From a virus: a DNA stretch of 38,607 nucleotides. The stretch spans positions 1-38,607 of the IMG/VR virus record IMGVR_UViG_3300020439_001354. One strand, 5' to 3'. A program made the translations under genes and the position numbers. This document shows, in pieces, positions 5,985 to 29,169 of the stretch. Numbering within the stretch: position 1 is the stretch's first letter; every line of letters starts with the position of its first letter. The notes below the pieces were generated by a model. The model searched no databases. It was not told the origin of the DNA and saw nothing but the letters and a program-made list of their open reading frames with translations.

Positions 5985-6146
5985 ATGAAAAACTTATATA
6001 TCATACCACTTGTACTTTTAGGAGTATTACTAGCAACAGGATGTGCGGGTAGAATTTATTTAGATGCTACTTTGCCTAATGATAAGGACGTTGACATCCG
6101 TATAACTACTAATACAGAACCTAAAGAGTACATTGTCGAAAAGTAA
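5985..6146 (+). CDS. Small predicted lipoprotein, 53 residues
   Basis: A 53-residue frame opening MKNLYIIPLVLLGVLLATGC. It has a short basic N-terminus, a hydrophobic segment (about residues 4-18) and a lipobox ending in Cys20, followed by a small polar domain with beta-prone IYLDATL and VDIRITTN. The design is that of a secreted lipid-anchored protein of the periplasm or outer membrane. The upstream sequence contains AGGA at a long spacing and a TATAAATG element (5980-5987) one base off the late-promoter octamer, so late expression is possible. Candidates are an Rz1-like spanin subunit or a superinfection-exclusion lipoprotein. Neither can be decided, and there is no adjacent inner-membrane spanin gene. 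Confidence 0.6.
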   Translation: MKNLYIIPLVLLGVLLATGCAGRIYLDATLPNDKDVDIRITTNTEPKEYIVEK

Positions 6147-11563: not shown

Positions 11564-12445
11564 ATGGCAAAACTTAGATATAGCGAAGCATTTTATTCAG
11601 TACAAGGTGAAGGAAGATTTGTAGGTGTTCCTAGTATTTTCCTAAGGGTGTTTGGTTGCAACTTTGAATGTAGAGGTTTTGGTCAGGAACGAGGTAAACT
11701 TATTCCTGTAGAAGAAATGCCCTACATGACAGATCCTAGAGCAGATAAAGATAACGAAATAGCATATAAAAGCATCGAGGAACTTCCTGTTACTCCTATA
11801 GGATGTGATAGTTCAGCATCTTGGGCGATGAAATACAAACATTTACAATTAACAAAGACAATAGACGAGGTGTTTGAACATATCGTTAGTTTACTTCCTA
11901 ATGGTAAATTTGATGAGGCAGAAGATATACATCTTGTTATTACAGGTGGTGAACCATTGCTAGGTTGGCAAAGAGTGTGGCCTGAATTATTAGAAATGTG
12001 TAAAGAAGTAGGTTTGAAAAATGTAACTTACGAAACAAATGGTACACAGAATTTACAACAACAATTTATTGATTATCTAAATGGTGATGGTAAAGACTTA
12101 CATATTACATGGTCTACATCTCCTAAATTATCTATTTCAGGCGAGGAACAATTCGACGCACTTATCCCTGAGGCATTATTAGATATGAACAAAGTAAATA
12201 ATAGCTATTTGTATAATAAATTTGTCGTTAGAGACATAGAAGATTTTGAAGAGGTGGATTTATTTGTTGATGAATATAAATCTGCTGGTGTTGTTCTGGA
12301 TTCAGTTTACTGTATGCCAGAAGGCGCAACATTGGAACAGCAATCTTTAACAGAAAAAGATGTTGCTGAAGCTTGTATGAAAACAGGTTACAAGTTTAGT
12401 CCGAGGTTGCATATTACTTTATTCGGGAATGCATGGGGAACATAG
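11564..12445 (+). CDS. queE: QueE-like radical SAM 7-carboxy-7-deazaguanine synthase
   Basis: Predicted to convert 6-carboxytetrahydropterin to 7-carboxy-7-deazaguanine using S-adenosylmethionine and a [4Fe-4S] cluster. Evidence: YSVQGEGRFVGVPSIFLRVFGC matches the QueE N-terminus (substrate-binding SxQGEG), TGGEPLLG is the SAM-binding GGEP, and TYETNGTQ is the next QueE block. The cluster motif is unusual. The canonical CX3CX2C reads C32-NFE-C36-RGF with Phe in place of the third Cys, and the next Cys is C81 in PIGCDSSASW after an insertion. This variant resembles a phage-type QueE subfamily carrying both motifs. At 293 residues it is longer than E. coli QueE (about 220), the insertion being the difference. 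It is first in the 7-deazaguanine cluster. Confidence 0.87.
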   Translation: MAKLRYSEAFYSVQGEGRFVGVPSIFLRVFGCNFECRGFGQERGKLIPVEEMPYMTDPRADKDNEIAYKSIEELPVTPIGCDSSASWAMKYKHLQLTKTIDEVFEHIVSLLPNGKFDEAEDIHLVITGGEPLLGWQRVWPELLEMCKEVGLKNVTYETNGTQNLQQQFIDYLNGDGKDLHITWSTSPKLSISGEEQFDALIPEALLDMNKVNNSYLYNKFVVRDIEDFEEVDLFVDEYKSAGVVLDSVYCMPEGATLEQQSLTEKDVAEACMKTGYKFSPRLHITLFGNAWGT

Positions 12446-12935: not shown

Positions 12936-13610
12936 ATGGCTTTTAATAAGACAAAAACTGACCCTGAATTGGGTCTTAAAATTCACGAACACTTAGTCAA
13001 GTGTGGAGTAGAAACCCCCGTAGTAGATAATGGACTTACTCGTACAGAGAAGATTGAGATTATCAAAGATAAATTTACTGACATTATGAATGTTATGGGA
13101 CTAGATTTATCTGATGACAGTCTTATGGACACACCTAATCGTGTCGCTAAGATGTATATTAACGAGATCTTTTGGGGTCTAGATTACGAGGCGTTTCCTA
13201 AATGTACAGCAGTTGAAAACAAAATGGAATATGAAAGTATGGTTGTTGAACGTAACATAAATGTTCAATCCAACTGTGAACATCATTTTGTAGTCATTGA
13301 TGGCGTAGGAACTGTGGCGTACATTCCAAACAAAAAGGTTTTAGGATTAAGTAAACTTAATCGTATAGTAGAATACTTTGCCAAGAGACCACAAATACAA
13401 GAACGTTTGACAGAACAAGTATATTATGCACTACAATACATTCTCGATACAGATAATATTGCAGTAGTTATAGATGCTCAACATTATTGCGTAAAGAGTC
13501 GTGGTGTAGAAGACGTAGGTTCGTCTACTATTACAAGTAAACTAGGTGGAGGGTTCAAAGATGACCCAGCACTTAGAGCAGAGTTTATGAACTTGATTGC
13601 TAGAAAGTAA
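12936..13610 (+). CDS. folE: GTP cyclohydrolase I FolE
   Basis: Converts GTP to dihydroneopterin triphosphate, the first step of both folate and 7-deazaguanine synthesis. Zinc ligands and active site are intact: QSNCEHHFVVIDG (Cys114, His116, His117) and DAQHYCVKSRGVEDVGSSTIT (His183, Cys185, with the conserved SRG and STxT). YIPNKKVLGLSKLNRIVEYFAKRPQIQERL is the usual GTP cyclohydrolase core. Length 224 residues, E. coli 222. Strong ribosome-binding site GGAAGGAG. It has its own late promoter, unlike queE, which has early-type sites. Confidence 0.96.
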   Translation: MAFNKTKTDPELGLKIHEHLVKCGVETPVVDNGLTRTEKIEIIKDKFTDIMNVMGLDLSDDSLMDTPNRVAKMYINEIFWGLDYEAFPKCTAVENKMEYESMVVERNINVQSNCEHHFVVIDGVGTVAYIPNKKVLGLSKLNRIVEYFAKRPQIQERLTEQVYYALQYILDTDNIAVVIDAQHYCVKSRGVEDVGSSTITSKLGGGFKDDPALRAEFMNLIARK

Positions 13611-13628
13611 ATTACAAAATTTTATATT

Positions 13629-14162
13629 ATGGACATTAATAAACCTCATATAGTCGTTGATTTGGAAACATTAAGCACACGCTCTAATGCGTGTATAGTT
13701 TCTATTGGCGCTGTGAGAATAGAAAACTTAGAAATAGTAGATGAGTTTTTTGTGAACGTAGATCCTATGACTTGTAAAGAAGCAGGATTACATATACAAA
13801 AAAGCACAGTAGATTGGTGGGCAGAACAACCAAAAGATATTAGACAGGCGTGGCAAAAAGATCCTGTTCCATTAGATGAGGCATTAGATAAGTTTCAAAA
13901 GTTTTATGGTTGGGATAGTATTCCTATTTGGGGCTATGGTGCCAACTTTGATGTTGTAATATTAGAAAATGCTATGACACTATCAGGTTGGAATGAAAAC
14001 AAAAGTGAAATGGAACGTTACCCCTGGAAATTTTGGGACATTTATTGTTTAAGAACATTAATGAACGTGTTGAATAAAAAGTTACCTAAGGCAAACAATC
14101 ATAATGCTTTAGATGATGCAGTAGCAGAAGCTAATATGCTTATAGAGATATTAAAATCATGA
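13629..14162 (+). CDS. dexA: DnaQ-fold 3'-5' exonuclease, DexA-like
   Basis: A DEDD-family exonuclease of 177 residues. ExoI is VVDLETLSTRSNA (Asp11, Glu13), ExoII is WGYGANFDVVIL (NFD), and ExoIII is NHNALDDAVAEA (HxAxDD). All acidic catalytic residues are kept. It resembles T4 exonuclease A (DexA), here shorter than the T4 protein of about 227. A role in degrading DNA ends or host DNA is likely. Lying inside the 7-deazaguanine cluster between folE and the transglycosylase, it might also act selectively on unmodified DNA, which is only a guess. It ends in ATGA overlap with the transglycosylase gene. Confidence 0.85.
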   Translation: MDINKPHIVVDLETLSTRSNACIVSIGAVRIENLEIVDEFFVNVDPMTCKEAGLHIQKSTVDWWAEQPKDIRQAWQKDPVPLDEALDKFQKFYGWDSIPIWGYGANFDVVILENAMTLSGWNENKSEMERYPWKFWDIYCLRTLMNVLNKKLPKANNHNALDDAVAEANMLIEILKS

Positions 14163-15424
14163 ATAAAAAATTAGAATATGTAGTATCAGGCACAAGTTAT
14201 ATGCGCCTAAGTAATCCACAAATTGCTAATGATGAAACTAATTCAGGTATTGTTAGAACACTGATAGAAAAATTAGTACAGGACAAACATCATCACAAAT
14301 TTAGCATGCTATACAACGGACATACAGAGTCAGGCTTTGGTGAACGATTTAAATCTTACAGAGAATCTATACACCAAGTTCATGTTGACTCAGGTGGTCT
14401 TCAGGTTGTTACACAAGGACTAGATTTAACTGATGAACTAAAAGAAAAAGTATATCGAAACCAGGCACAGTTTGGAGATATCGGTATGTGCTTTGATGAG
14501 ATTCCTGTAATACTTACAGGCGAAAGGTCAGAACGTAATGATGTAAAACAAAGGTTCTTTGACTTTGAAAACTATGAGGAGATGGCAAGAGCTACAGGTA
14601 GAAACATTAAAAGGCAATTAGAAATATTTGATGAGGAAGAAAGTAATTGTAAACCCTTTATTATTCTACAAGGTAATTGTGTTGATACATATCTTCGTTG
14701 GTATGAATGTTTACTATCAGAAATACCTGAACAATGGCATGATAGATTAGGCGGTATTGCAATGGGAGCAGCAGGACTAGGAACAGGTCCATTAGAAGAT
14801 GTAAAAAGAGCTTTTATTGCTAGTGAAATAGAAAAAGTTTGGACACAAGATAAAATGCACTTACACGTCTTAGGAGTAGGAAGTATTAGACGTATGTTGC
14901 CTTATTTGGTATTCACACAGAATGGTTTATACAAAGATGTAGACATATCATATGACTCTACAACACATAGTAGAGCTGTAGAAACAGGTTTATTTTATAT
15001 GGGTACAGGTACAACTAAGTTCTCCAGACAAATGAGTAATTTGTATAGAGAAATGTACGATAATTGCACACAGGAAGTCAATTTAGGTGTAGATCTTGAC
15101 ACATTTTACAAGATGTTGAACACACCTAGTACCAAGGCTAAGGAAGAATGGGGCGACTTACATCAATGGATATATGTAAGAACGGCATTTACACTTATGT
15201 CTATCAAAAACTTCATGTCACATTTAGAAACAATGTTATTGGATAAAGACACCCTAATTAAGTTTACGGGTAAAATGAAACTTGACGGACAGTTCCGTAA
15301 TCTCTATAATGTAAACAATAGACAGGACTTTGACTATTGGGAGAACAATCAATACTTAGGAGGTATGATGAAGTCAATGTCCGTGGCGAAGGAAGCGCCA
15401 ATTAATTTGGAGGAACTATTTTGA
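14159..15424 (+). CDS. dpdA: TGT-like DNA transglycosylase (DpdA family)
   Basis: Predicted to exchange guanine in DNA for a 7-deazaguanine base. The tRNA-guanine transglycosylase active site is recognisable in order: HVDSGGLQVV (Asp77, general acid/base), MCFDEIP (Asp113), IILQGNC, GGIAMGAAGLGTGPLED, GVGSIRRMLP, and VDISYDSTTHSR (Asp266, the nucleophile, matching the FDCVLPTR block of TGT). The TGT zinc site CxCxxC is absent from the C-terminal part, as in phage DpdA proteins that act on DNA rather than tRNA. Length 421 residues. With folE, queE and queD nearby, a DNA-modification role is much more likely than tRNA modification. Base identity (carboxy-, cyano- or a further derivative) cannot be read from sequence. 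Confidence 0.85.
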   Translation: MNKKLEYVVSGTSYMRLSNPQIANDETNSGIVRTLIEKLVQDKHHHKFSMLYNGHTESGFGERFKSYRESIHQVHVDSGGLQVVTQGLDLTDELKEKVYRNQAQFGDIGMCFDEIPVILTGERSERNDVKQRFFDFENYEEMARATGRNIKRQLEIFDEEESNCKPFIILQGNCVDTYLRWYECLLSEIPEQWHDRLGGIAMGAAGLGTGPLEDVKRAFIASEIEKVWTQDKMHLHVLGVGSIRRMLPYLVFTQNGLYKDVDISYDSTTHSRAVETGLFYMGTGTTKFSRQMSNLYREMYDNCTQEVNLGVDLDTFYKMLNTPSTKAKEEWGDLHQWIYVRTAFTLMSIKNFMSHLETMLLDKDTLIKFTGKMKLDGQFRNLYNVNNRQDFDYWENNQYLGGMMKSMSVAKEAPINLEELF

Positions 15425-16343: not shown

Positions 16344-17394
16344 TTTAGAATATGTAGAAACTCGTTACACTGCACAATGGAAAACAGAACTACCCCAGGC
16401 AATTGCAGACGCTAACGACACTTCAGTTACAATTATTGAAGGTACACATCAGGAACAAGATGTTTCGTCAGGAACATTCTTAGATTTCTCAGCGACTAAC
16501 ATATACAAAGCAGAACAAGTCCAAAAGATTGCACAACTGTTTAAGAACGGTGATATAAAAGATGGAGACCACTTTGTATTTGCAGATGCCTGGCACCCTG
16601 GTATTATTAATTTAAAATACATGGCAGACTTGCAGAATATTAAAATTACTACACATGGTCTGTGGCACGCAGGTAGTTATGATCCACAGGATTTTTTAGG
16701 TAGGCAAATAGGTGATAAGCCCTGGGTTAGACATTCAGAGTATGCAATGTTTGATGGGTATGATAAAAACTATTTTGCTAGCCAATTTCATATAAGTTTA
16801 TTTGCACAGGAAATGTTTAATGATCCTGATAGCCAGGAGTATTTACAAAAGAAAATTGTAAGAACAGGTTGGCCTTTTGAATATCTACAAAATGTTATTA
16901 GAAATGATACAATAGGTGTTGAAAAGGATAACTTAATATTGTTTCCTCACAGAAACGCACCAGAAAAACAGTTAAAAATATTTGAGGACTTAGCTTTACA
17001 ACTCCCAGAATATGAATTTATTAACTGTGCAGATTATGACTTGAAGAAACAGGACTATCACAAACTGTTAGGACAGGCAAAGATTGTGTTTAGTGCTAAT
17101 CTACAAGAAACATTAGGTATATCATGTTATGAAATACTATTAGCGGGTGGGTATCCACTTGTTCCTAATAGATTATCTTATAGTGAGATGTATCAATCGG
17201 AGTTTTTGTATCCTAGTGAATGGACATTGAGTTATGAAGATTATCAGAGTAACAAACAATATCTAATAGATAGGATACGATATATTATGGAAAACTTTAA
17301 TTCAAATGAATTGAGAAATGCAGCAGAAGAGAACACTGCATCATTAACGCAGCAGTATTTCTCTGCTAGTAACTTATATCAGGAGTTAAAATGA
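16327..17394 (+). CDS. GT-B-type glycosyltransferase
   Basis: A 355-residue protein. The C-terminal half carries a nucleotide-sugar binding domain: NLILFPHRNAPEKQLKIF, then IVFSANLQETLGISCYEILLAGG (the E-x7-E-like donor motif of retaining GT-B enzymes), YPLVPNRLSYSEMY. The N-terminal half has FVFADAWHPGIINLKYM and THGLWHAGSYDPQDFLG, which recur in a glycosyltransferase family of T4-like phages. No signal peptide or membrane helix, so it acts in the cytoplasm. Placed between the T-fold protein and queD with overlaps on both sides, it may decorate the modified base in DNA. Glycosylation of a protein or surface sugar remains possible. Confidence 0.72.
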   Translation: MIYLIDLEYVETRYTAQWKTELPQAIADANDTSVTIIEGTHQEQDVSSGTFLDFSATNIYKAEQVQKIAQLFKNGDIKDGDHFVFADAWHPGIINLKYMADLQNIKITTHGLWHAGSYDPQDFLGRQIGDKPWVRHSEYAMFDGYDKNYFASQFHISLFAQEMFNDPDSQEYLQKKIVRTGWPFEYLQNVIRNDTIGVEKDNLILFPHRNAPEKQLKIFEDLALQLPEYEFINCADYDLKKQDYHKLLGQAKIVFSANLQETLGISCYEILLAGGYPLVPNRLSYSEMYQSEFLYPSEWTLSYEDYQSNKQYLIDRIRYIMENFNSNELRNAAEENTASLTQQYFSASNLYQELK

Positions 17395-17855
17395 ATATGA
17401 AAACATTTAAATATTATTCTACAAAAACTTATGGACACGAAGAAGGTTTGTCTTGTGTATTTAGACAACCTAATGCTACACATAGCCATTGCAGTTTACT
17501 ACATGGTTATTCTTTGTCCTTTAGTTTTGAATTTGCATGCCAAAGTTTAGACGACAAGAATTGGGTTGTAGATTTTGGTGGACTAAAAGAACTAAAACAA
17601 TGGTTGAAGGACAATTTCGACCACAAATTTGCAGTTGCAAAGGATGATCCTGCACTACAAGATTTTCTAGAACTAGAACAAAAAGGACTAGCAGATGTTG
17701 TTGTAATGAATGGTGTAGGTTGTGAAAAGTTTGCAGAACAAGCATTTCACTTTGCCAGTGACTTAGTAAGTAAAAAAACTAATGGCAGATGTTACGCAAC
17801 ACAATGTGAAGTAAGAGAACACGGGGCTAATTCAGCGATATATAGGGCAGTCTAA
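17391..17855 (+). CDS. queD: QueD-like 6-carboxytetrahydropterin synthase
   Basis: Converts dihydroneopterin triphosphate to 6-carboxytetrahydropterin, the step between FolE and QueE. It has TYGHEEGLSCVFRQ (His16, Cys22), HSHCSLLHGYSLSF (zinc-site histidines; the classical HGH reads HGY, with extra histidines at 31 and 33), WVVDFGGLKELKQWL, the catalytic FDHKF (Asp77-His78) and the C-terminal VREHGANSAIY glutamate block. This HGY form looks like a proteobacterial QueD subfamily rather than a broken enzyme. 154 residues. The start is the first of two nearby ATGs, with CAGGAG 6 bases upstream. It ends immediately before gp47, so the modification cluster is joined to the recombination genes. Confidence 0.87.
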   Translation: MNMKTFKYYSTKTYGHEEGLSCVFRQPNATHSHCSLLHGYSLSFSFEFACQSLDDKNWVVDFGGLKELKQWLKDNFDHKFAVAKDDPALQDFLELEQKGLADVVVMNGVGCEKFAEQAFHFASDLVSKKTNGRCYATQCEVREHGANSAIYRAV

Positions 17856-21786: not shown

Positions 21787-22140
21787 ATGGCAGACGATAC
21801 TTTTGATTTCGGTTTCACGGCTGTAGATGAACCAAGTGATAATGTACAGCAGCCTCAACCTGCTCTAAATAATGACGAAGTCCTAGATAAACTTGCACAA
21901 CTAGAAGCAAAGATTATCCAAGCGGACAATTCAAATATGGTGAATGAACATAGGGCTCTTATTGAGTCAGATGTTGCAGGCAAACTTCGCGATGTAGAAG
22001 ATCTTGTACTACCTTTACTATATAATTTACAAAAGAATCCTGAAAAGGAATATATCCATTGGCCAAATAGAACGGCTATTATTGATAAACAAATTGAAAA
22101 AATTAAGGCGGTAACAAGATTTTATGAGCGAGTCAACTAA
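21787..22140 (+). CDS. Conserved T4-like marine phage protein, unknown function
   Basis: A 117-residue acidic, mostly helical protein, MADDTFDFGFTAVDEPSD at its N-terminus. The C-terminal two thirds (DVEDLVLPLLYNLQKNPEKEYIHWPNRTAII onward) is the conserved-looking part, with a heptad-like KLAQLEAKI segment before it. It is preceded by AACAGGAGAACAAC and overlaps the ClpP-like gene by 17 bases. Similar proteins occur in cyanophages. I know no function. Confidence 0.7.
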   Translation: MADDTFDFGFTAVDEPSDNVQQPQPALNNDEVLDKLAQLEAKIIQADNSNMVNEHRALIESDVAGKLRDVEDLVLPLLYNLQKNPEKEYIHWPNRTAIIDKQIEKIKAVTRFYERVN

Positions 22141-22726
22141 ACCAATAAACAATCCACAGCAACAGGGCAACGCTTTTGAACGTCCTGTTGCTAGAATATT
22201 TGATCTGTATCTATCAGGACCGATAGAAACAGCAGAAAAATACCAAGACTGGAACCAAATACTAAGGTCATCAGGTGAAAATGATGTAATAGTATTGCAC
22301 ATCAATAGTAATGGTGGCAATATATTTTCATGTATTCAATTGATGCGTAGTATAAGAGAGTCTCAAGGAACAGTCGTAGCTTCAGTAGAAGGTATGTGTT
22401 TCTCAGCAGCAACTCTCTTATTTCTAGTTTCCGATGTATGTGAAGTAAGCGATCATTCGCATTTCATGTTTCATACATACAGTTCGGGAGCATGGGGAAA
22501 GGGGAACGAACAATTAGAATCAGTTATGGCTGATGATAAATGGGCACGGGCTCTTTTTAAAGACGTATATAAGGACTTTTTATCAGCAGAAGAACTAAAA
22601 GAAATGATGCAAGGCAGAGACTTTTGGTTATCAGCAGATGATGTTACAAAGCGTCTCGAGGCAAGGAATAAGAAAAACGCAAAAGCTAAACCTCGTAAAA
22701 GACTTTTGCAAAAACAAGGAAAGTAA
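22124..22726 (+). CDS. ClpP-like serine protease
   Basis: A ClpP/crotonase-fold protease of 200 residues. It has YLSGPIETA, the oxyanion block HINSNGGNIFS (about 59-69), the nucleophile region VEGMCFSAATLLFL (Ser94), and the catalytic His in FMFHTYSSGAWG (His117). The C-terminus is strongly basic (KKNAKAKPRKRLLQKQ), unlike host ClpP. No Clp ATPase is encoded beside it; it might borrow the host ClpX/ClpA or act alone, perhaps in head maturation or host protein turnover. Confidence 0.85.
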   Translation: MSESTKPINNPQQQGNAFERPVARIFDLYLSGPIETAEKYQDWNQILRSSGENDVIVLHINSNGGNIFSCIQLMRSIRESQGTVVASVEGMCFSAATLLFLVSDVCEVSDHSHFMFHTYSSGAWGKGNEQLESVMADDKWARALFKDVYKDFLSAEELKEMMQGRDFWLSADDVTKRLEARNKKNAKAKPRKRLLQKQGK

Positions 22727-24276
22727 TGAAAAATATATTATGGGTGTTTTTATTCACCACACTATCTACCACGGTAGCAGCTTCTAATCCAGATTATGAT
22801 GTAGAAGAAATAATTGTAGTAGGAGCATACATCGTTGAAGGACGAGCAGATGCAGAATATGATGATAATTTATTGGAATCTATTATGCCTACTAAGAGTT
22901 ATGTTGCAGGAGGACCTGGAGCATTTCAAGGTATCATGTTAAATGGTACAGACACGAAACACACGGCCGTTTATAAAAACGGAGTCCCTGTAAATGATCC
23001 TAGTTCTGGATGGTTTGATTTTGGAACAGAATTAATTTCAGGGCAAAATACAAAACTTATATCAGGACCTAATAGTGTACAATTTGGTAGTGGTTCTATG
23101 GCAGGAGTCGTACTTATTGATGACGATTTATCAATAAGAGAAACTATTATTAAAGGAGCTAATGATAAAGCATACTTCTTTACATCTCTTGAAGGACTTC
23201 AACTGATACATTATAAAGGAACAAACGGTTCTGCTAGGAGTGATAACACAGAAGAAGATTGGTATGAAAATACAACTTTAAAATTTGGTGGTGATGTAAA
23301 TGATTGGATTATTAGAGGTGAATTTACAGATTACACTTATGATTATGATAATTGTTGGACTGAAACACCTAATAATTGTGTACAAGACGGAGAGAAAACT
23401 TTCTTCTCAGCAAGAAACAATAAAGTTACTCTAGGTTATATGGGTAATGAAGCAACACATAACACAGGTTTTGAATTAGACACAGAGAGATTTTATCTTG
23501 ATGCAACAGTTTACGAAGCCTATGGTATGAAAGTAGGAATCACAGGACAGAAAGAAACATACAACGAATTAGATAGAGATATTGGTTCTGTATGGTTTAC
23601 TTGGACAGACGACAGAGGAGTTTCAGTAGGTTTGAGATACGAAGATGACGCAGAGATTATTAGAGTAGGATACGAAAATGATGATGTGAAAGTTTCTGTA
23701 GGTAATAGTTACAGACGTCCTAATCTATATGAGGAAAATGGTGACGATTGGGTAGCAGCTAATCCTAATTTATTACCTGAAGAAGGCATAGGTGCTGAGG
23801 TAACTTGGAATAAATTTTCAGTATTTTATAATGAATTTAGCGAAGGTATTGAATTTGATATGTCAGCATATCAATATGTGAACACAGGATCTTATGATGC
23901 TCATGGTGTTAAATATATGAACCAATGGCTAATGGATACAGGATCTATCTTTTTCTCTACTGTATATACGCAAACAGATAAAATTAGAGTACCTGATTGG
24001 ATGACTAAAATCTCATATTGGACAGCAGGAACTATAGGTGGCATGACTTGGACAGGAGAGATTGCATACATCTCAGAACTTAATAAAGGAAAGGACTTTG
24101 ATGGTAGAGAAATCGACGATGTAGACAACTTTGATATCCGTTGGAGTATAGAACCTGCCCCTAGACATACAGTAATGTTCGCGATAAACGATGTTTTCGA
24201 CAATAATTTTGAGGTTTTACCCGATTATCCAGCAGGAGGACGTGAATTTTCTCTTAGCTACCGCGTAAGTTATTGA
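22726..24276 (+). CDS. TonB-dependent outer-membrane receptor
   Basis: A 516-residue outer-membrane beta-barrel receptor. A Sec signal peptide (residues 1-19, hydrophobic VFLFTTL then TTVAA and cleavage before Ser20) is followed by a TonB box VEEIIVVGA (26-34). Next comes a plug domain with VYKNGVPVNDPS and KLISGPNSVQFGSGSMAGVV, the hallmark (R/S)GPxSxxYGSxxxGGV motif. A barrel of alternating aromatic strands ends in SLSYRVSY, with the terminal aromatic residue needed for barrel insertion. It is shorter than most receptors (about 600-900), perhaps a reduced barrel. Its start overlaps the ClpP-like stop by one base with ribosome-binding site AAGGAAAG, so it is integrated in a phage operon. The ligand is unknown; iron-siderophore, vitamin B12 or a receptor-swap role are candidates. 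Confidence 0.85.
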   Translation: MKNILWVFLFTTLSTTVAASNPDYDVEEIIVVGAYIVEGRADAEYDDNLLESIMPTKSYVAGGPGAFQGIMLNGTDTKHTAVYKNGVPVNDPSSGWFDFGTELISGQNTKLISGPNSVQFGSGSMAGVVLIDDDLSIRETIIKGANDKAYFFTSLEGLQLIHYKGTNGSARSDNTEEDWYENTTLKFGGDVNDWIIRGEFTDYTYDYDNCWTETPNNCVQDGEKTFFSARNNKVTLGYMGNEATHNTGFELDTERFYLDATVYEAYGMKVGITGQKETYNELDRDIGSVWFTWTDDRGVSVGLRYEDDAEIIRVGYENDDVKVSVGNSYRRPNLYEENGDDWVAANPNLLPEEGIGAEVTWNKFSVFYNEFSEGIEFDMSAYQYVNTGSYDAHGVKYMNQWLMDTGSIFFSTVYTQTDKIRVPDWMTKISYWTAGTIGGMTWTGEIAYISELNKGKDFDGREIDDVDNFDIRWSIEPAPRHTVMFAINDVFDNNFEVLPDYPAGGREFSLSYRVSY

Positions 24277-24381: not shown

Positions 24382-26706
24382 GTGAATGAGATACAACAAA
24401 AATCAACATTAGCAAAGTTACTGGCAACAGAAGATATTTCTGTTGTACACGATGCTAAAATGCCTACTGCAGCATTTGATGTAAAAGAACGTACATTATA
24501 TTTGCCAGTATTTAAGAAAATGTCTAATGAACTATATGATTTGTTTATTGGACACGAAGTAGGACATGCACATTTTACTCCTGAAGAAGGATGGCATGAC
24601 GCAGTATGTGATACACCTGAACTTAAGCACTTCTACAACATTATAGAAGACGCACGTATTGAACGTAAGGTTAAGGCAAAGTATCCTGGTTTAGCTTCCT
24701 CATTTTACAAAGGTTACAAAGAATTATTCGACAAAGACTTTTTTGGTATTAGAGGTCGTGACGTAAATAGTTTCCCATTCGCAGACAGAATTAACTTACA
24801 CTTCAAATTAGGCCACATGGCAGGTGTAGAGTTCTCAGAAACAGAACAAGTTTTCATAGATCGTATTGCAAAAGCAGAAACTTGGGATGATGTTAAACAA
24901 CTTTCACAAGAACTAGCAGTTACTTCCAAGAAAGAAGCTGAGGAACGTGCTGACGAAGGCAACGATTTACAAGAGATGCTAGATGATCTTCAGAAACAAC
25001 TAGCACAATCTCAAGAATCACAAACAGAAAATCCTGAGGACAATGAGTTGGATTCTTGGGAGCAACGTTACCAAATGGAAAAAGAAGATCGTGAAGAACA
25101 CGAAGACGAAGACGGTAACGTCCCAGAAGATTACGAATTTGATCGTTACAGCGATGAAGTTACTGAAGAAGTTGAAAAGCGTGTTGAAAAGGCAAAAGCA
25201 CAGCGTCAGCAACACGAAGAAGAACAAAAAGATATCGACGACTTACAGGAACAAATTGAGAAAGTCAAAGAAGATTTAGAATTTCACAATCAAGACGGTC
25301 AACATTCTCAAACAGACGCAGCGTTTAGAAAAAACGAAACTCAACTTGTTGATATGGATGCAGCAGAAAGACTATATGTAGACTTAGACGGTCCTACTGG
25401 TCCAGAAGATGTCATTGTCCAAATGGACGATCTATATAATTGGGAAAACTGCGTAACTCGTGAACAATATTACGAACCATACAAGACTACCCCTGAAGAA
25501 CTTAAAAAGTGGGGCTTAGAGATGGGTCGTAAGTATGAGGCAATGAACAGGCCAATCATTAATCAAATGGCTCAACAGTTTGAACTTAGAAAAGCAGCAA
25601 CAGGTTTCAAGAAAGCACGTATTTCTAAAACAGGTAAGTTGAATGAGGACAAATTGTGGGCATACAAACTGACAGAGGACTTGTTCCAACAGACACAGGT
25701 TGTTCCTAACGGTAAGAATCACGGTATAATTATGTACGTTGACTTATCAGGTAGCATGCACTATCATATGAAAGGTACATTAGAACAAGCAATCAACGTT
25801 GGTATGTTCTGTAGAAAAGTTGGTATCCCTTTTGATGTGTATGGTTTTAGCGACAACGGTAAAAGAGAACAATCCCTAGAAGGTAAATTTAAAACTCATG
25901 ACTTTAAAGTAGGACAATTTGTAGATTATGGCAATGTCAAACTTGTCCATATGCTAAGTTCTAAGTCTAAGAAATCACAATGGGATAACGCACTTGCATA
26001 CTTAATGTGCATGATCAAAGGTTACGAGCGTAGTTCATATGATGAATACATCTACATTATGAACGAATACTTTAGACTTTCAGGTACACCACTTAACCAT
26101 TGTTTAGCATACGCTCCTAAAATAGCAGCGCAATTTAAAAAGCAATACAATGTTGAGATACTTTCAACAATATTCTTAACAGATGGTGGTGCAACTGACC
26201 AACTTTCTTTCTTTAAAGAAAGAAAAGACGATTATGTTGAGCGAGAGCGTACATACGGCAAGCAATTGGTTGCACGTATAGGTGCTAGCACAGTAGAAGG
26301 TCCTAGGTTAAAAGGTAGTTATTACAGTAACGAAGCAGAAACTAGATTCCTTGTAGATTACTACAAAAAGGTAACAGGTTCCAGAACATTTAACTTCCAT
26401 ATTGTAGGAGTTAAGCGTAGAGAATTCGAGAATGAGTATCACAGACGTTCAGATAACTATTCTTATGTCCACTTTGAACAATGGTACAAAAATGTACTTA
26501 AAAACAAGTTCGGTCTATTGACAGAGGACTCAGGATGGGATGCAACTATGCTCATCAAAGGACAAAGAGATCTACAGATTGAGGACAAAGAATTAGAAGT
26601 TAAATCCAATAAAAGAGGTGATTTACTTCGAGGATTTAAGAAGTTTAATGGTGATAAGAAAACATCTAGGACTTTTGTTAACCAAATCATAGAGTTAGTA
26701 GCGTAA
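24382..26706 (+). CDS. VWA-domain CobT-like protein with HExxH motif
   Basis: A 774-residue protein. The N-terminus has a metalloprotease-like HEVGHAHF (58-65), then IIEDARIERKVK, typical of CobT-type proteins. The middle (about 180-320) is a highly charged acidic coiled coil. The C-terminal part has a von Willebrand A domain with the MIDAS motif MYVDLSGSM (about residues 450-458) and TIFLTDGGATD. This is the layout of CobT-like partners of MoxR ATPases. In cyanophages it is often annotated as a peptidase or cobaltochelatase subunit; no CobN is here, so cobalt chelation is doubtful. Start is GTG at 24382; GAGG lies about 10 bases upstream. Partner ATPase at 26809. Confidence 0.8.
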   Translation: MNEIQQKSTLAKLLATEDISVVHDAKMPTAAFDVKERTLYLPVFKKMSNELYDLFIGHEVGHAHFTPEEGWHDAVCDTPELKHFYNIIEDARIERKVKAKYPGLASSFYKGYKELFDKDFFGIRGRDVNSFPFADRINLHFKLGHMAGVEFSETEQVFIDRIAKAETWDDVKQLSQELAVTSKKEAEERADEGNDLQEMLDDLQKQLAQSQESQTENPEDNELDSWEQRYQMEKEDREEHEDEDGNVPEDYEFDRYSDEVTEEVEKRVEKAKAQRQQHEEEQKDIDDLQEQIEKVKEDLEFHNQDGQHSQTDAAFRKNETQLVDMDAAERLYVDLDGPTGPEDVIVQMDDLYNWENCVTREQYYEPYKTTPEELKKWGLEMGRKYEAMNRPIINQMAQQFELRKAATGFKKARISKTGKLNEDKLWAYKLTEDLFQQTQVVPNGKNHGIIMYVDLSGSMHYHMKGTLEQAINVGMFCRKVGIPFDVYGFSDNGKREQSLEGKFKTHDFKVGQFVDYGNVKLVHMLSSKSKKSQWDNALAYLMCMIKGYERSSYDEYIYIMNEYFRLSGTPLNHCLAYAPKIAAQFKKQYNVEILSTIFLTDGGATDQLSFFKERKDDYVERERTYGKQLVARIGASTVEGPRLKGSYYSNEAETRFLVDYYKKVTGSRTFNFHIVGVKRREFENEYHRRSDNYSYVHFEQWYKNVLKNKFGLLTEDSGWDATMLIKGQRDLQIEDKELEVKSNKRGDLLRGFKKFNGDKKTSRTFVNQIIELVA

Positions 26707-26808: not shown

Positions 26809-28005
26809 ATGAAAGCAATTGATAGAGAAAACTTAGTAGCAGCACTTAAAGACTGTGATAACGGTACAGGTGTTTTTACTAGGAAACAAATAATTGAAAC
26901 TGCCCAATCTATTGGTGTTGGTTTCCCAGCCTGGTTAGTAAACAAGCCAGACTATAAAGTAGACAGAGGTGTCTATAACTTGACTGCAATGTTCGGAGGA
27001 ACAGCACAGGCAATTGAACTTCCAAAGGCAGCCCCTAAGGCTCCAATTATGGAGGTACAATCCCAGGCTCCAGCCCCCGAGGTATTGACTCAGGCTATCC
27101 TGAATGTAACCGTTGATAACTTAGTCCCATTCAAAGATGAGACTTATGTTCCATATGGTTTCTTCAAGGACTTGAAAAAAGTTCTAACAAGTTCTATGTT
27201 TTACCCAATATTCATTAGCGGTTTATCTGGTAATGGTAAAACTACAATGGTAGAACAAGTATGTGCGAACCTGAAACGTGAGGCGGTTCGTGTAAATATT
27301 AGTATTGAAACTGATGAAGATGATTTGATCGGTGGCAATACTCTAGTTGACGGTAACGTCGTGTATAGAGAAGGGCCCGTCCTCACAGCGATGAAACGCG
27401 GGGCTGTTCTTATCCTTGATGAAGTAGACAGAGGTTCCAATAAGCTGATGTGCTTACAAGCTATTCTAGAAGGTAAGCCCTACTTCAACAAGAAGACTGG
27501 CGAAACCGTAACTCCTGCTCCCGGCTTTAACATTGTTGCAACAGCCAACACAAAAGGTCGAGGTTCTGATGATGGCAAATTTATTAGCGCCAACATACTC
27601 GACGAGGCATTCCTAGAAAGGTTTGCAATCACCGTGGAGCAGGAGTACCCTACTTTAGCAACCGAGAAGAAGATTGTTCTAAACAAAATGAACAAGGCAA
27701 ATTGTGTAGACGAAGATTTCGCACTGCACTTGGTTACTTGGTCAGATGTAATTCGTAAAACATATTACGAAGGTGCAATTGATGAACTGATCTCAACTCG
27801 TAGGTTAGAGCACATTGTAAACGCATACGCAATGTTTACAGATAAAACTAAGGCAATTGAACTATGTGTCAACAGGTTCGATGAAGATACTAAGGCAGCA
27901 TTTATAGACTTGTATGCCAAAGTTGATCCTAGTGTACAGATTAATGAAGGTGACGATGAGATCCTTGATAACGAAAAAGCGGAGGAAGAACTTGGCGAAG
28001 AATAA
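26809..28005 (+). CDS. MoxR/CobS-like AAA+ ATPase
   Basis: AAA+ ATPase of 398 residues. After an N-terminal DNA-binding-like domain (1-65, VFTRKQIIETAQSIGVGFPAWL) and a Pro/Ala linker come Walker A GLSGNGKT (138-145), ETDEDDLIGGNTLVDG and YREGPVLTAMKRGAVLILDEVDR (Walker B), sensor-1 IVATANTKG and the arginine finger segment EAFLERFAI. This is the CobS/MoxR type, which remodels targets together with a VWA protein, here the gene at 24382. In cyanophages it is called CobS. Ribosome-binding site GAGG, 7 bases before ATG. The tail is acidic. Confidence 0.87.
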   Translation: MKAIDRENLVAALKDCDNGTGVFTRKQIIETAQSIGVGFPAWLVNKPDYKVDRGVYNLTAMFGGTAQAIELPKAAPKAPIMEVQSQAPAPEVLTQAILNVTVDNLVPFKDETYVPYGFFKDLKKVLTSSMFYPIFISGLSGNGKTTMVEQVCANLKREAVRVNISIETDEDDLIGGNTLVDGNVVYREGPVLTAMKRGAVLILDEVDRGSNKLMCLQAILEGKPYFNKKTGETVTPAPGFNIVATANTKGRGSDDGKFISANILDEAFLERFAITVEQEYPTLATEKKIVLNKMNKANCVDEDFALHLVTWSDVIRKTYYEGAIDELISTRRLEHIVNAYAMFTDKTKAIELCVNRFDEDTKAAFIDLYAKVDPSVQINEGDDEILDNEKAEEELGEE

Positions 28006-28300
28006 AATAGACTACAAGTTTAACGAAGGAGCTCTTATTCAAGAGCTCCAGGCGTATATCGACGAAACATATGGTGGTCATTACAGTAGAAATAAATTCC
28101 AATCAACGGAATTTATCAGTGATTGTGGACACGGTATTGGTTTCGCAATAGGAAACATTTTAAAATATGCACAAAGGTATGGCAAAAAAGGTGTTGCCGA
28201 GGACCATAGAAAGGATCTACAAAAGGTTCTACACTATGCAATTATTGCACTAAATGAGCATGATAAAAGTACCGTAAAACACTATTTGGATGAAGACTAA
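27992..28300 (+). CDS. DUF3310-like (SaV-like) small protein
   Basis: About 102 residues. I place the start at TTG 27992, which follows GGAGG by 6 bases. The reading frame is open further upstream, but that part lies within the ATPase gene. The body has ETYGGHYSRNKFQSTEFISD, GFAIGNILKYAQRYGKKG and DLQKVLHYAIIAL, matching the HYxxxxxQxxEFI, GNAxKYxxRxGKK and DLxKAxxYL pattern of the DUF3310 family common in phages, sometimes called nucleotide-kinase-like. Function is unproven. Its stop overlaps the next start by one base. Confidence 0.78.
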   Translation: MAKNKIDYKFNEGALIQELQAYIDETYGGHYSRNKFQSTEFISDCGHGIGFAIGNILKYAQRYGKKGVAEDHRKDLQKVLHYAIIALNEHDKSTVKHYLDED

Positions 28301-29169
28301 TGGACTTTGTAGAAGCCGATTATGTTGAATGTAATGTGGTTAACTACAAATCATGCCATGGTATGGACTCCAACTATCGCAATTTTGATCTAGTATATCG
28401 CCCAGGTATTAATACAATACGTCTGGGCATCTACATGGATGATAGAATGGAAAGGCGTAGAGTGTTTGGTTATGTAAAACAACTGAACGAAATATTTAAA
28501 ATCAACGGTATTGATATTCATATTGAGACTGCTTTTGTAGAGCCTGTTGATATTAAAAACACCTATGATAGTTTAGGAAATATTGAACTAGCATATGATT
28601 TAAAAGATTGGGATCAGTATTCTCCCTTCTATGAGAAAGCTTGGTTAGTAGACAAGTATGAAGTAGATATGATTCACGTCATGTTAGACAGTGAACAAGA
28701 TTGGGAAGTATGTGGTGCCGGTTGGGTATGGAAAGGTGAAGGTATGACTGCAGGATTGACTGCCTGTTATACTAAGAATGATATTGCCACAGTAGATCCT
28801 GAACAAGATACATCTACTGAATATATTTTTGCACATGAAATTGGACACCAACTAGGGTTAGCACATGCAAGAGATGACTCTGGTGAGAAACCAACCTTTA
28901 GTGTAGGACATGGCTTCATGGCATCTGATGGTACAGGAACAATTATGTCTTATGCTAAAAATAGAGTGCCTTATTATTCTAATTGCTGGACAGAGATCAA
29001 TGGTATTAAATATGGTAATTCAGAACACAGAGCAGACATGGCAATCAACGCATCTGCTCCTTCGATATCATTAACGTATGAAAACTATGGTCCCTATAAT
29101 TATCCTGTTATTGATCCTGAGATAGGAGCTAATAACGACAGGTTTATTAACACCGTATTTAGAAATTAA
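28300..29169 (+). CDS. Metzincin-type zinc metalloprotease
   Basis: A 289-residue protein with the full metzincin zinc-binding consensus HEIGHQLGLAH (179-189; HExxHxxGxxH) and a Met-turn motif TIMSYA (about 214-219). The N-terminal 100 residues carry a strand-rich domain (FDLVYRPGINTIRLGIYMDDR) and DMIHVMLDSEQDWEVCGAGWVW, resembling reprolysin-like folds. No signal peptide, so it is either made in the cytoplasm and released on lysis, or carried in the virion. There are six cysteines. It overlaps the DUF3310-like gene by one base and is followed by a late-promoter-driven gene. Confidence 0.85.
   Translation: MDFVEADYVECNVVNYKSCHGMDSNYRNFDLVYRPGINTIRLGIYMDDRMERRRVFGYVKQLNEIFKINGIDIHIETAFVEPVDIKNTYDSLGNIELAYDLKDWDQYSPFYEKAWLVDKYEVDMIHVMLDSEQDWEVCGAGWVWKGEGMTAGLTACYTKNDIATVDPEQDTSTEYIFAHEIGHQLGLAHARDDSGEKPTFSVGHGFMASDGTGTIMSYAKNRVPYYSNCWTEINGIKYGNSEHRADMAINASAPSISLTYENYGPYNYPVIDPEIGANNDRFINTVFRN

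Follow-up and report, generated by a model that had tools for sequence, protein, structure and literature searches.

A compact BtuB-like receptor gene carried by uncultured T4-like phages

Phages often bind nutrient receptors and rarely bring their own. A TonB-dependent receptor gene set among the genes of a T4-like phage raises the question of what its product would carry, and what the phage might gain from it. The stretch of DNA analysed (the window) is a virus record of 38,607 bases that contains T4-like portal, scaffold and major head genes, together with gp46, clamp-loader and CobS-like genes (PHROG). The receptor gene, the elements of its product and the neighbouring genes are located as follows.

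22726..24276, + strand: BtuB-like TonB-dependent receptor gene, 516 aa (ORF, Pfam Plug, AF2 model, B12-transporter matches)
22726..22785, + strand: probable signal peptide, residues 1-20 (translation read by eye)
22801..22827, + strand: TonB box VEEIIVVGA, residues 26-34 (translation; family conservation)
22831..23124, + strand: plug domain, residues 36-133 (Pfam Plug at residues 49-128; plug strands in model)
23140..24270, + strand: predicted 22-strand barrel, residues 139-515 (DSSP on AF2 model)
23242..23259, + strand: acidic loop DNTEED, residues 173-178, a possible calcium/corrinoid site (conservation; BtuB 193/195 alignment)
23338..23379, + strand: a further conserved loop, YDYDNC...C, residues 205-218, in which two Cys are invariant (family conservation)
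22124..22726, + strand: ClpP-like protease gene, upstream neighbour (Pfam CLP_protease, phrog_1827)
24382..26706, + strand: phrog_459 'peptidase' gene, downstream neighbour, to which we attach the label 'CobT-like' (PHROG; no Pfam/NCBIfam match)
26809..28005, + strand: CobS-like AAA ATPase gene (phrog_249; NCBIfam CobS 76 bits, below the cut-off of 558.55)

The receptor ORF is intact and starts with ATG. It overlaps the ClpP-like ORF by a single base, as a preliminary description of the sequence had stated. The TonB box, the plug motif SGPNSVQFGSGSMAGV and the aromatic C-terminus LSYRVSY that it listed are all found in the translation. Pfam Plug scores 28.4 bits against a gathering score of 23.9 and matches 12/12 family members at E<=1, a threshold at which the Pfam barrel model matches none of the 12. 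The window receptor has no PHROG match at E<=0.001. Its sole match at E<=0.001 among 50,697 phage records is btuB on a Salmonella whole-genome contig included in the collection; two further family members have none there at E<=0.01, nor does a third, more divergent one at 0.001. The ORF, the Plug match, the predicted fold and the sister phages described below all bear out the earlier claim of a phage-encoded TonB-dependent receptor in a phage operon, and membership of the TonB-dependent transporter class is near certain.

The first AF2 model, based upon 12 alignment rows, has 22 strands and a poorly resolved plug (pLDDT 60.3), and its structural matches are likewise headed by BtuB. It was replaced by a second model from 32 rows (pLDDT 82.3, pTM 0.83), in which DSSP assigns the plug strands and 22 barrel strands. 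The predicted fold has both barrel and plug, so the concern that one might be missing falls away. The barrel is short, as was noticed earlier, with about 378 residues after the plug (139-516) in place of the 385 first estimated; it is modelled as compact but complete. In a structural comparison with 998 PDB chains the best 15 of the 50 entries listed are B12 transporters. Escherichia coli BtuB matches with Z 33.8-36.2 (450-486 residues aligned, 2.5-2.8 Å, approximately 20% identity) and B. thetaiotaomicron BtuB with Z 31.9-33.1. Below these among the 50 entries come other receptors, such as those for siderophores and haem, starting at Z 31.1; differences within 1 Z are treated as ties, and by that measure the lowest-ranked B12 row (31.9) cannot be separated from the first of the others. 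In BFVD the sole match at E<=0.001 is a SusC from an uncultured marine phage (805 aa, 11% identity).

Comparison of sequences points the same way. A profile built from 12 rows (A1) matches ten PDB sequences at E<=1, all of them B12 transporters. The window sequence alone finds no B12 transporter in the PDB at this threshold, its single match (0.27) being unrelated. The family HMM scores E. coli BtuB at 60.8 bits, compared with 10.5 for CirA, 2.4 for FhuA and 1.3 for FepA. Two NCBIfam BtuB models match 9/12 and 8/12 family members, and two haem-type models match 3/12 each, in every case below the cut-off; those of the BtuB equivalogs TIGR01779 and NF007926 are missed by far (40.7 versus 599.7 and 45.2 versus 836 bits, respectively). 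The bacterial relatives are similar in this respect. For all ten that were scanned the best NCBIfam match is a BtuB model, and nine miss the equivalog cut-off. Descent of the phage receptor from the B12 (BtuB) lineage is thus strongly indicated.

The bacterial relatives provide a further indication of the substrate, in their upstream regions. They were taken from every genome listed with a match at E<=1e-12 (profile A1) or E<=1e-13 (profile A3), giving 38 distinct genomes; G020 and G021, with matches below these cut-offs, were left out. In 36/38 (3/3, 18/20 and 15/15) the gene is preceded, on its own strand, by a cobalamin-type riboswitch, one of which (L237) barely passes at 32.1 versus 31.5 bits. 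Some of the bacterial genomes searched have up to 62 plug-domain matches. As a control, 20 other receptors in 14 of the genomes were examined, and a riboswitch was found at one (L251). The contrast gives a Fisher p of 4e-12, a generous figure since the genomes are related. For the phage receptor loci, types A to F (defined below), 0/24 sources have a riboswitch at the Rfam gathering score, the matches being tRNAs only; several of these sources are near-duplicates. A cobalamin riboswitch upstream of BtuB is common, not universal. From this comparison we infer that the phage gene may escape repression by the vitamin. Two bacterial BtuB-like receptors, L221 (G500) and L222 (G415), differ from the other 36 in that the upstream riboswitch match is absent. 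In two 1.2-Mb genomes (L095, L096) a B12-type receptor lies behind an AdoCbl-II riboswitch and adjoins the rRNA operon.

BtuB contains a cage of five aspartates that holds two calcium sites next to the B12 pocket, according to PMC7360065. In 61 distinct family proteins of the phages N174, E176 and D178 (acidic loop) and Y207, D208, C210 and C218 are all invariant. We take the calcium-ligand positions of BtuB to be 179, 193, 195, 230 and 241. At BtuB positions 193, 195, 229 and 230 all 32 phage rows have E, D, Y and D; L080, L072 and L073, relatives under riboswitch control, show the same set, with either E or D at 193. CirA, FhuA and FepA are without the full set, with D at 230 in CirA and FepA. 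All phage rows have Ser at 179, and 241 is variable, so that two of these calcium positions are not conserved, and in a second alignment, of the 61 distinct phage proteins, the Y-D pair of BtuB is two residues out of register. The conserved acidic loops are consistent with a retained ligand site, short of proof. Taken with the model and the riboswitches of the bacterial relatives, the sequence comparisons make B12 the likely cargo of the phage receptor.

A shared fold or ancestor leaves the cargo unfixed, and barrels of BtuB's class switch cargo. The protein might therefore be a transporter of the same kind whose BtuB-derived barrel has moved to a siderophore, haem, cobalt or copper complex. 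The low identity to BtuB (just ~20% in the structural alignment), the three of 12 family members that match haem-receptor models and the loss of positions 179 and 241 all speak for this. It is nevertheless unlikely: B12 transporters hold the first rank by sequence and by structure, a B12 riboswitch accompanies 36/38 of the nearest bacterial genes, and the acidic loops do not vary. Within the uptake role proposed earlier, for iron or B12, B12 now ranks ahead of iron.

The gene is not confined to the window. Viral contigs scanned with the single sequence yielded 16 receptor loci and with the 12-row profile 37; with 32 rows in the profile, 248 of 274 stretches were confirmed as relatives. The neighbourhoods were tallied for 80 of the 248, with near-identical contigs counted separately. 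A matching ORF is present in 80/80 loci (418-553 aa, some truncated at contig ends). In type A (28/80) a ClpP-like gene lies just upstream or one small gene off, and mostly a phrog_459 gene downstream. The receptor precedes gp47 in type B (4/80), a gene labelled SGNH by eye in type C (12/80) and c27/c23 in type E (4/80). Type D (29/80) has a helicase gene immediately downstream, the closest phage matches of which are annotated as DNA helicase, and type F comprises 3/80. The median gap to the preceding gene is -1 base, and it is <80 bases in 71/77, with the start placed at the earliest start codon, which shortens the gaps. Many uncultured T4-like phages hold an intact, compact BtuB-like receptor gene, and these form a conserved phage receptor family that is named in none of the libraries searched here.

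Loci were also chosen by their neighbours, so that the receptor itself plays no part in the choice. The ClpP-like protein as query gave 8 loci, all with the receptor. The phrog_459 protein gave 9, and the receptor is found in all seven that extend far enough upstream (L101 and L102 do not). Pooled, it is present in 15/15 assessable loci on 12 contigs (3 of these common to both sets), where the two queries retrieve mainly close relatives. Sister phages thus have the gene at the same place, one of the checks proposed at the outset. Cyanophage S-WAM2 has the order gp46 - peptidase - cobS without a receptor. HTVC008M keeps the peptidase-CobS pair and has three hypothetical genes at the receptor position; the 380-aa protein that precedes its peptidase is not barrel-like by eye. 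Since the loci found through neighbours have the receptor and these two phages are without it, the gene looks to have been gained and kept in the lineage of the window.

A different use of the same barrel would be receptor replacement, in which it displaces or masks the host receptor as a defence against superinfection or bacteriocins, with transport lost or secondary. BtuB-type receptors serve phages and colicins as receptors, a BtuB-colicin structure is among the structural matches, and in one lineage the gene is fixed at a single locus. A mask alone needs neither a TonB box (E28 is present in 61/61 distinct family proteins and V31 in 58/61) nor invariant loops on the pocket side, however, and the gene is found in six neighbourhoods; we regard replacement as improbable. 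A receptor shed on debris or progeny as a decoy that soaks up phages or bacteriocins is very unlikely and has nothing in its favour here: the gene lies among replication genes (gp46/gp47, clamp loader) and not virion genes, and transporter features are retained.

A tree was calculated for 32 phage rows (types D, E and F absent) and 12 bacterial rows, for which the program warns of long branches. The phage and bacterial rows are split at 100/100, and types B and C are nested within A. The simplest reading of these sequences is that there was a single capture, with later movement among phages. Values of dN/dS are 0.11-0.60 (129 pairs with dS under 1.5), the highest at high dS, indicating purifying selection; for the window and its close relative L018 the value is 0.39, on 20 changes. 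Bacterial contamination or an assembly artefact is scarcely credible, because, although the viral sequences are contigs from metagenomes and false joins are suspected in two bacterial MAG contigs (L064, L065), a matching ORF occurs in every locus tallied within recurrent phage-like neighbourhoods, the tree separates phage from bacterial rows, and a scan of genome contigs gave 82 candidate stretches with no relative confirmed. A chimera in particular, for which absence from sister genomes would be the sign, is unlikely because a 98%-identical gene shares its neighbourhood on a second contig (L002/L018).

The search for the bacterial donor, which had also been proposed, yielded no close candidate either in the genome-contig scan or in the five genome samples searched by profile. 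Relatives at the cut-off, all distant, were found in 8/385, 7/398 and 12/196 genomes with profile A1, and in 7/369 and 17/385 with A3; the sets are samples of larger groups and partly overlap. The nearest relatives of the major head protein are in phages of OM43 and SAR11, and those of the DNA polymerase in cyanophages.

The possible users of imported B12 were sought in the phages themselves. A ribonucleotide reductase (RNR) large subunit is present in 8/20 phage records. The two RNRs scanned pass the NrdE/NrdA alpha-subunit cut-offs and miss that of B12-dependent NrdJ, and four phage RNRs keep a Tyr-Tyr pair (by eye) that we take to be meaningful for class I. A phage B12-dependent RNR was consequently rejected as a consumer. 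The RNR regions of L064 and L065, which lie near the phages' own in sequence, look like false joins by eye, phage-like RNR pieces being joined with the start of a galactokinase-like sequence and with that of a bacterial RNR.

Matches to a B12-binding domain occur in 5/20 phage records, above the Pfam cut-off in two; the window has none. A gene for a radical SAM protein of the B12-binding type lies immediately downstream of the receptor in L148 (the contig of L039), L153 and L156; in L030, L033/L034 and L047 it is 4-5 kb away in that direction. The B12-binding domain falls below the Pfam cut-off in all three of these proteins scanned, and two (c50) have no relative among GenBank phages at 1e-5. 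The default guess is that host enzymes such as methionine synthase use the vitamin. The adjacent CobT-like and CobS genes were considered as proof of a B12 function, and this was ruled out by S-WAM2 and HTVC008M, where the peptidase-CobS pair occurs in the same order without a receptor. A TonB C-terminal domain and a BtuF-type protein were found in 0/16 phage records, many fragmentary; the host must therefore provide the remaining uptake machinery. A small secreted-looking protein (cluster c22, ~143-199 aa) often has its gene between those for the ClpP-like protein and the receptor, for example at L034:9537-9977 with equivalents in L153 and L156. By eye it shows the motif DTSDVIAGIIFGG.LGSE. 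One member is without a Pfam match, and the protein could be a receptor partner.

Taken together, the gene probably encodes a TonB-dependent transporter of the BtuB lineage that imports corrinoids during infection, free of riboswitch control. The receptor would be expressed from the operon of phage replication genes, exported, and folded into a 22-strand barrel in the outer membrane. The host TonB system would power it through the conserved TonB box. Corrinoids, its presumed substrates, would be taken in and carried further by the inner importer of the host. Because the bacterial relatives lie behind cobalamin riboswitches and none was found at the phage copies, uptake could persist after the host has shut down the receptor of its own. 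The vitamin would then feed host enzymes and, in some phages, perhaps their own radical SAM protein of the B12-binding type. This suggests that the phages keep a scarce vitamin entering infected cells. More tentatively, it is possible that a large phage clade captured, shortened and de-riboswitched a B12 receptor, that some of the corrinoid goes to a phage radical SAM enzyme, and that such phages act directly in the aquatic B12 economy.

Other genes of the window deserve mention. It contains QueE-like (11564-12445), GTP cyclohydrolase (12936-13610) and QueD-like (17391-17855) genes, which suggest synthesis of 7-deazaguanine, perhaps for DNA modification; by eye, the phrog_10773 protein (14159-15424) resembles DpdA-type tRNA-ribosyltransferases. 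At 28300-29169 lies the gene of a reprolysin-like (M12) metallopeptidase (Pfam) bearing the motif HEIGHQLGLAH; it is present in the window and L018, and absent from the other sister loci clustered. An ORF of 53 aa (5985-6146) that follows the major head gene has no PHROG match and, by eye, a lipoprotein-like start, LLATGC. Phage lipoproteins of such kind may exclude superinfection.

B12 is limiting in parts of the ocean, according to PMC13079714. A conserved B12-type receptor in several T4-like phage neighbourhoods would link phage replication to a limiting vitamin. If this is correct, the debated cobalamin genes of phages gain a testable meaning, and infection is predicted to rewire vitamin traffic.

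A narrow search of full-text literature, largely outside subscription papers and exclusive of preprints, returned no account of a phage-encoded BtuB; the nearest precedent there is the SusC-like receptor of marine megaphage Mar_Mega_1 and LR745206, proposed for carbohydrate uptake (PMC9723777). That too is a TonB-dependent receptor encoded by a phage, but of SusC type and not BtuB-like. Phage cobS is described in PMC9301287, PMC11705849 and PMC13079714 as an auxiliary metabolic gene of possible help with cobalamin, and a role in its synthesis is proposed and termed speculative. The window has a CobS-like gene two genes downstream of the receptor, whereas the receptor itself is a transporter. 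The B12 transporters BtuB1/BtuB3 of B. thetaiotaomicron (8blw, 8bmx, 8p97, 8p98), which rank next after E. coli BtuB, differ in that their structures are complexes with surface lipoproteins. The closest known system is E. coli BtuB (PDB 2gsk, 1nqh), the top profile and structural match, which shares the TonB box, the plug and the 22-strand barrel. It is longer (614 aa versus 516 aa) and some 20% identical, and the phage receptor differs from it in having no detected riboswitch and in scoring below the equivalog cut-off. The phage receptor belongs to a transporter class already known, in a setting that is unusual.
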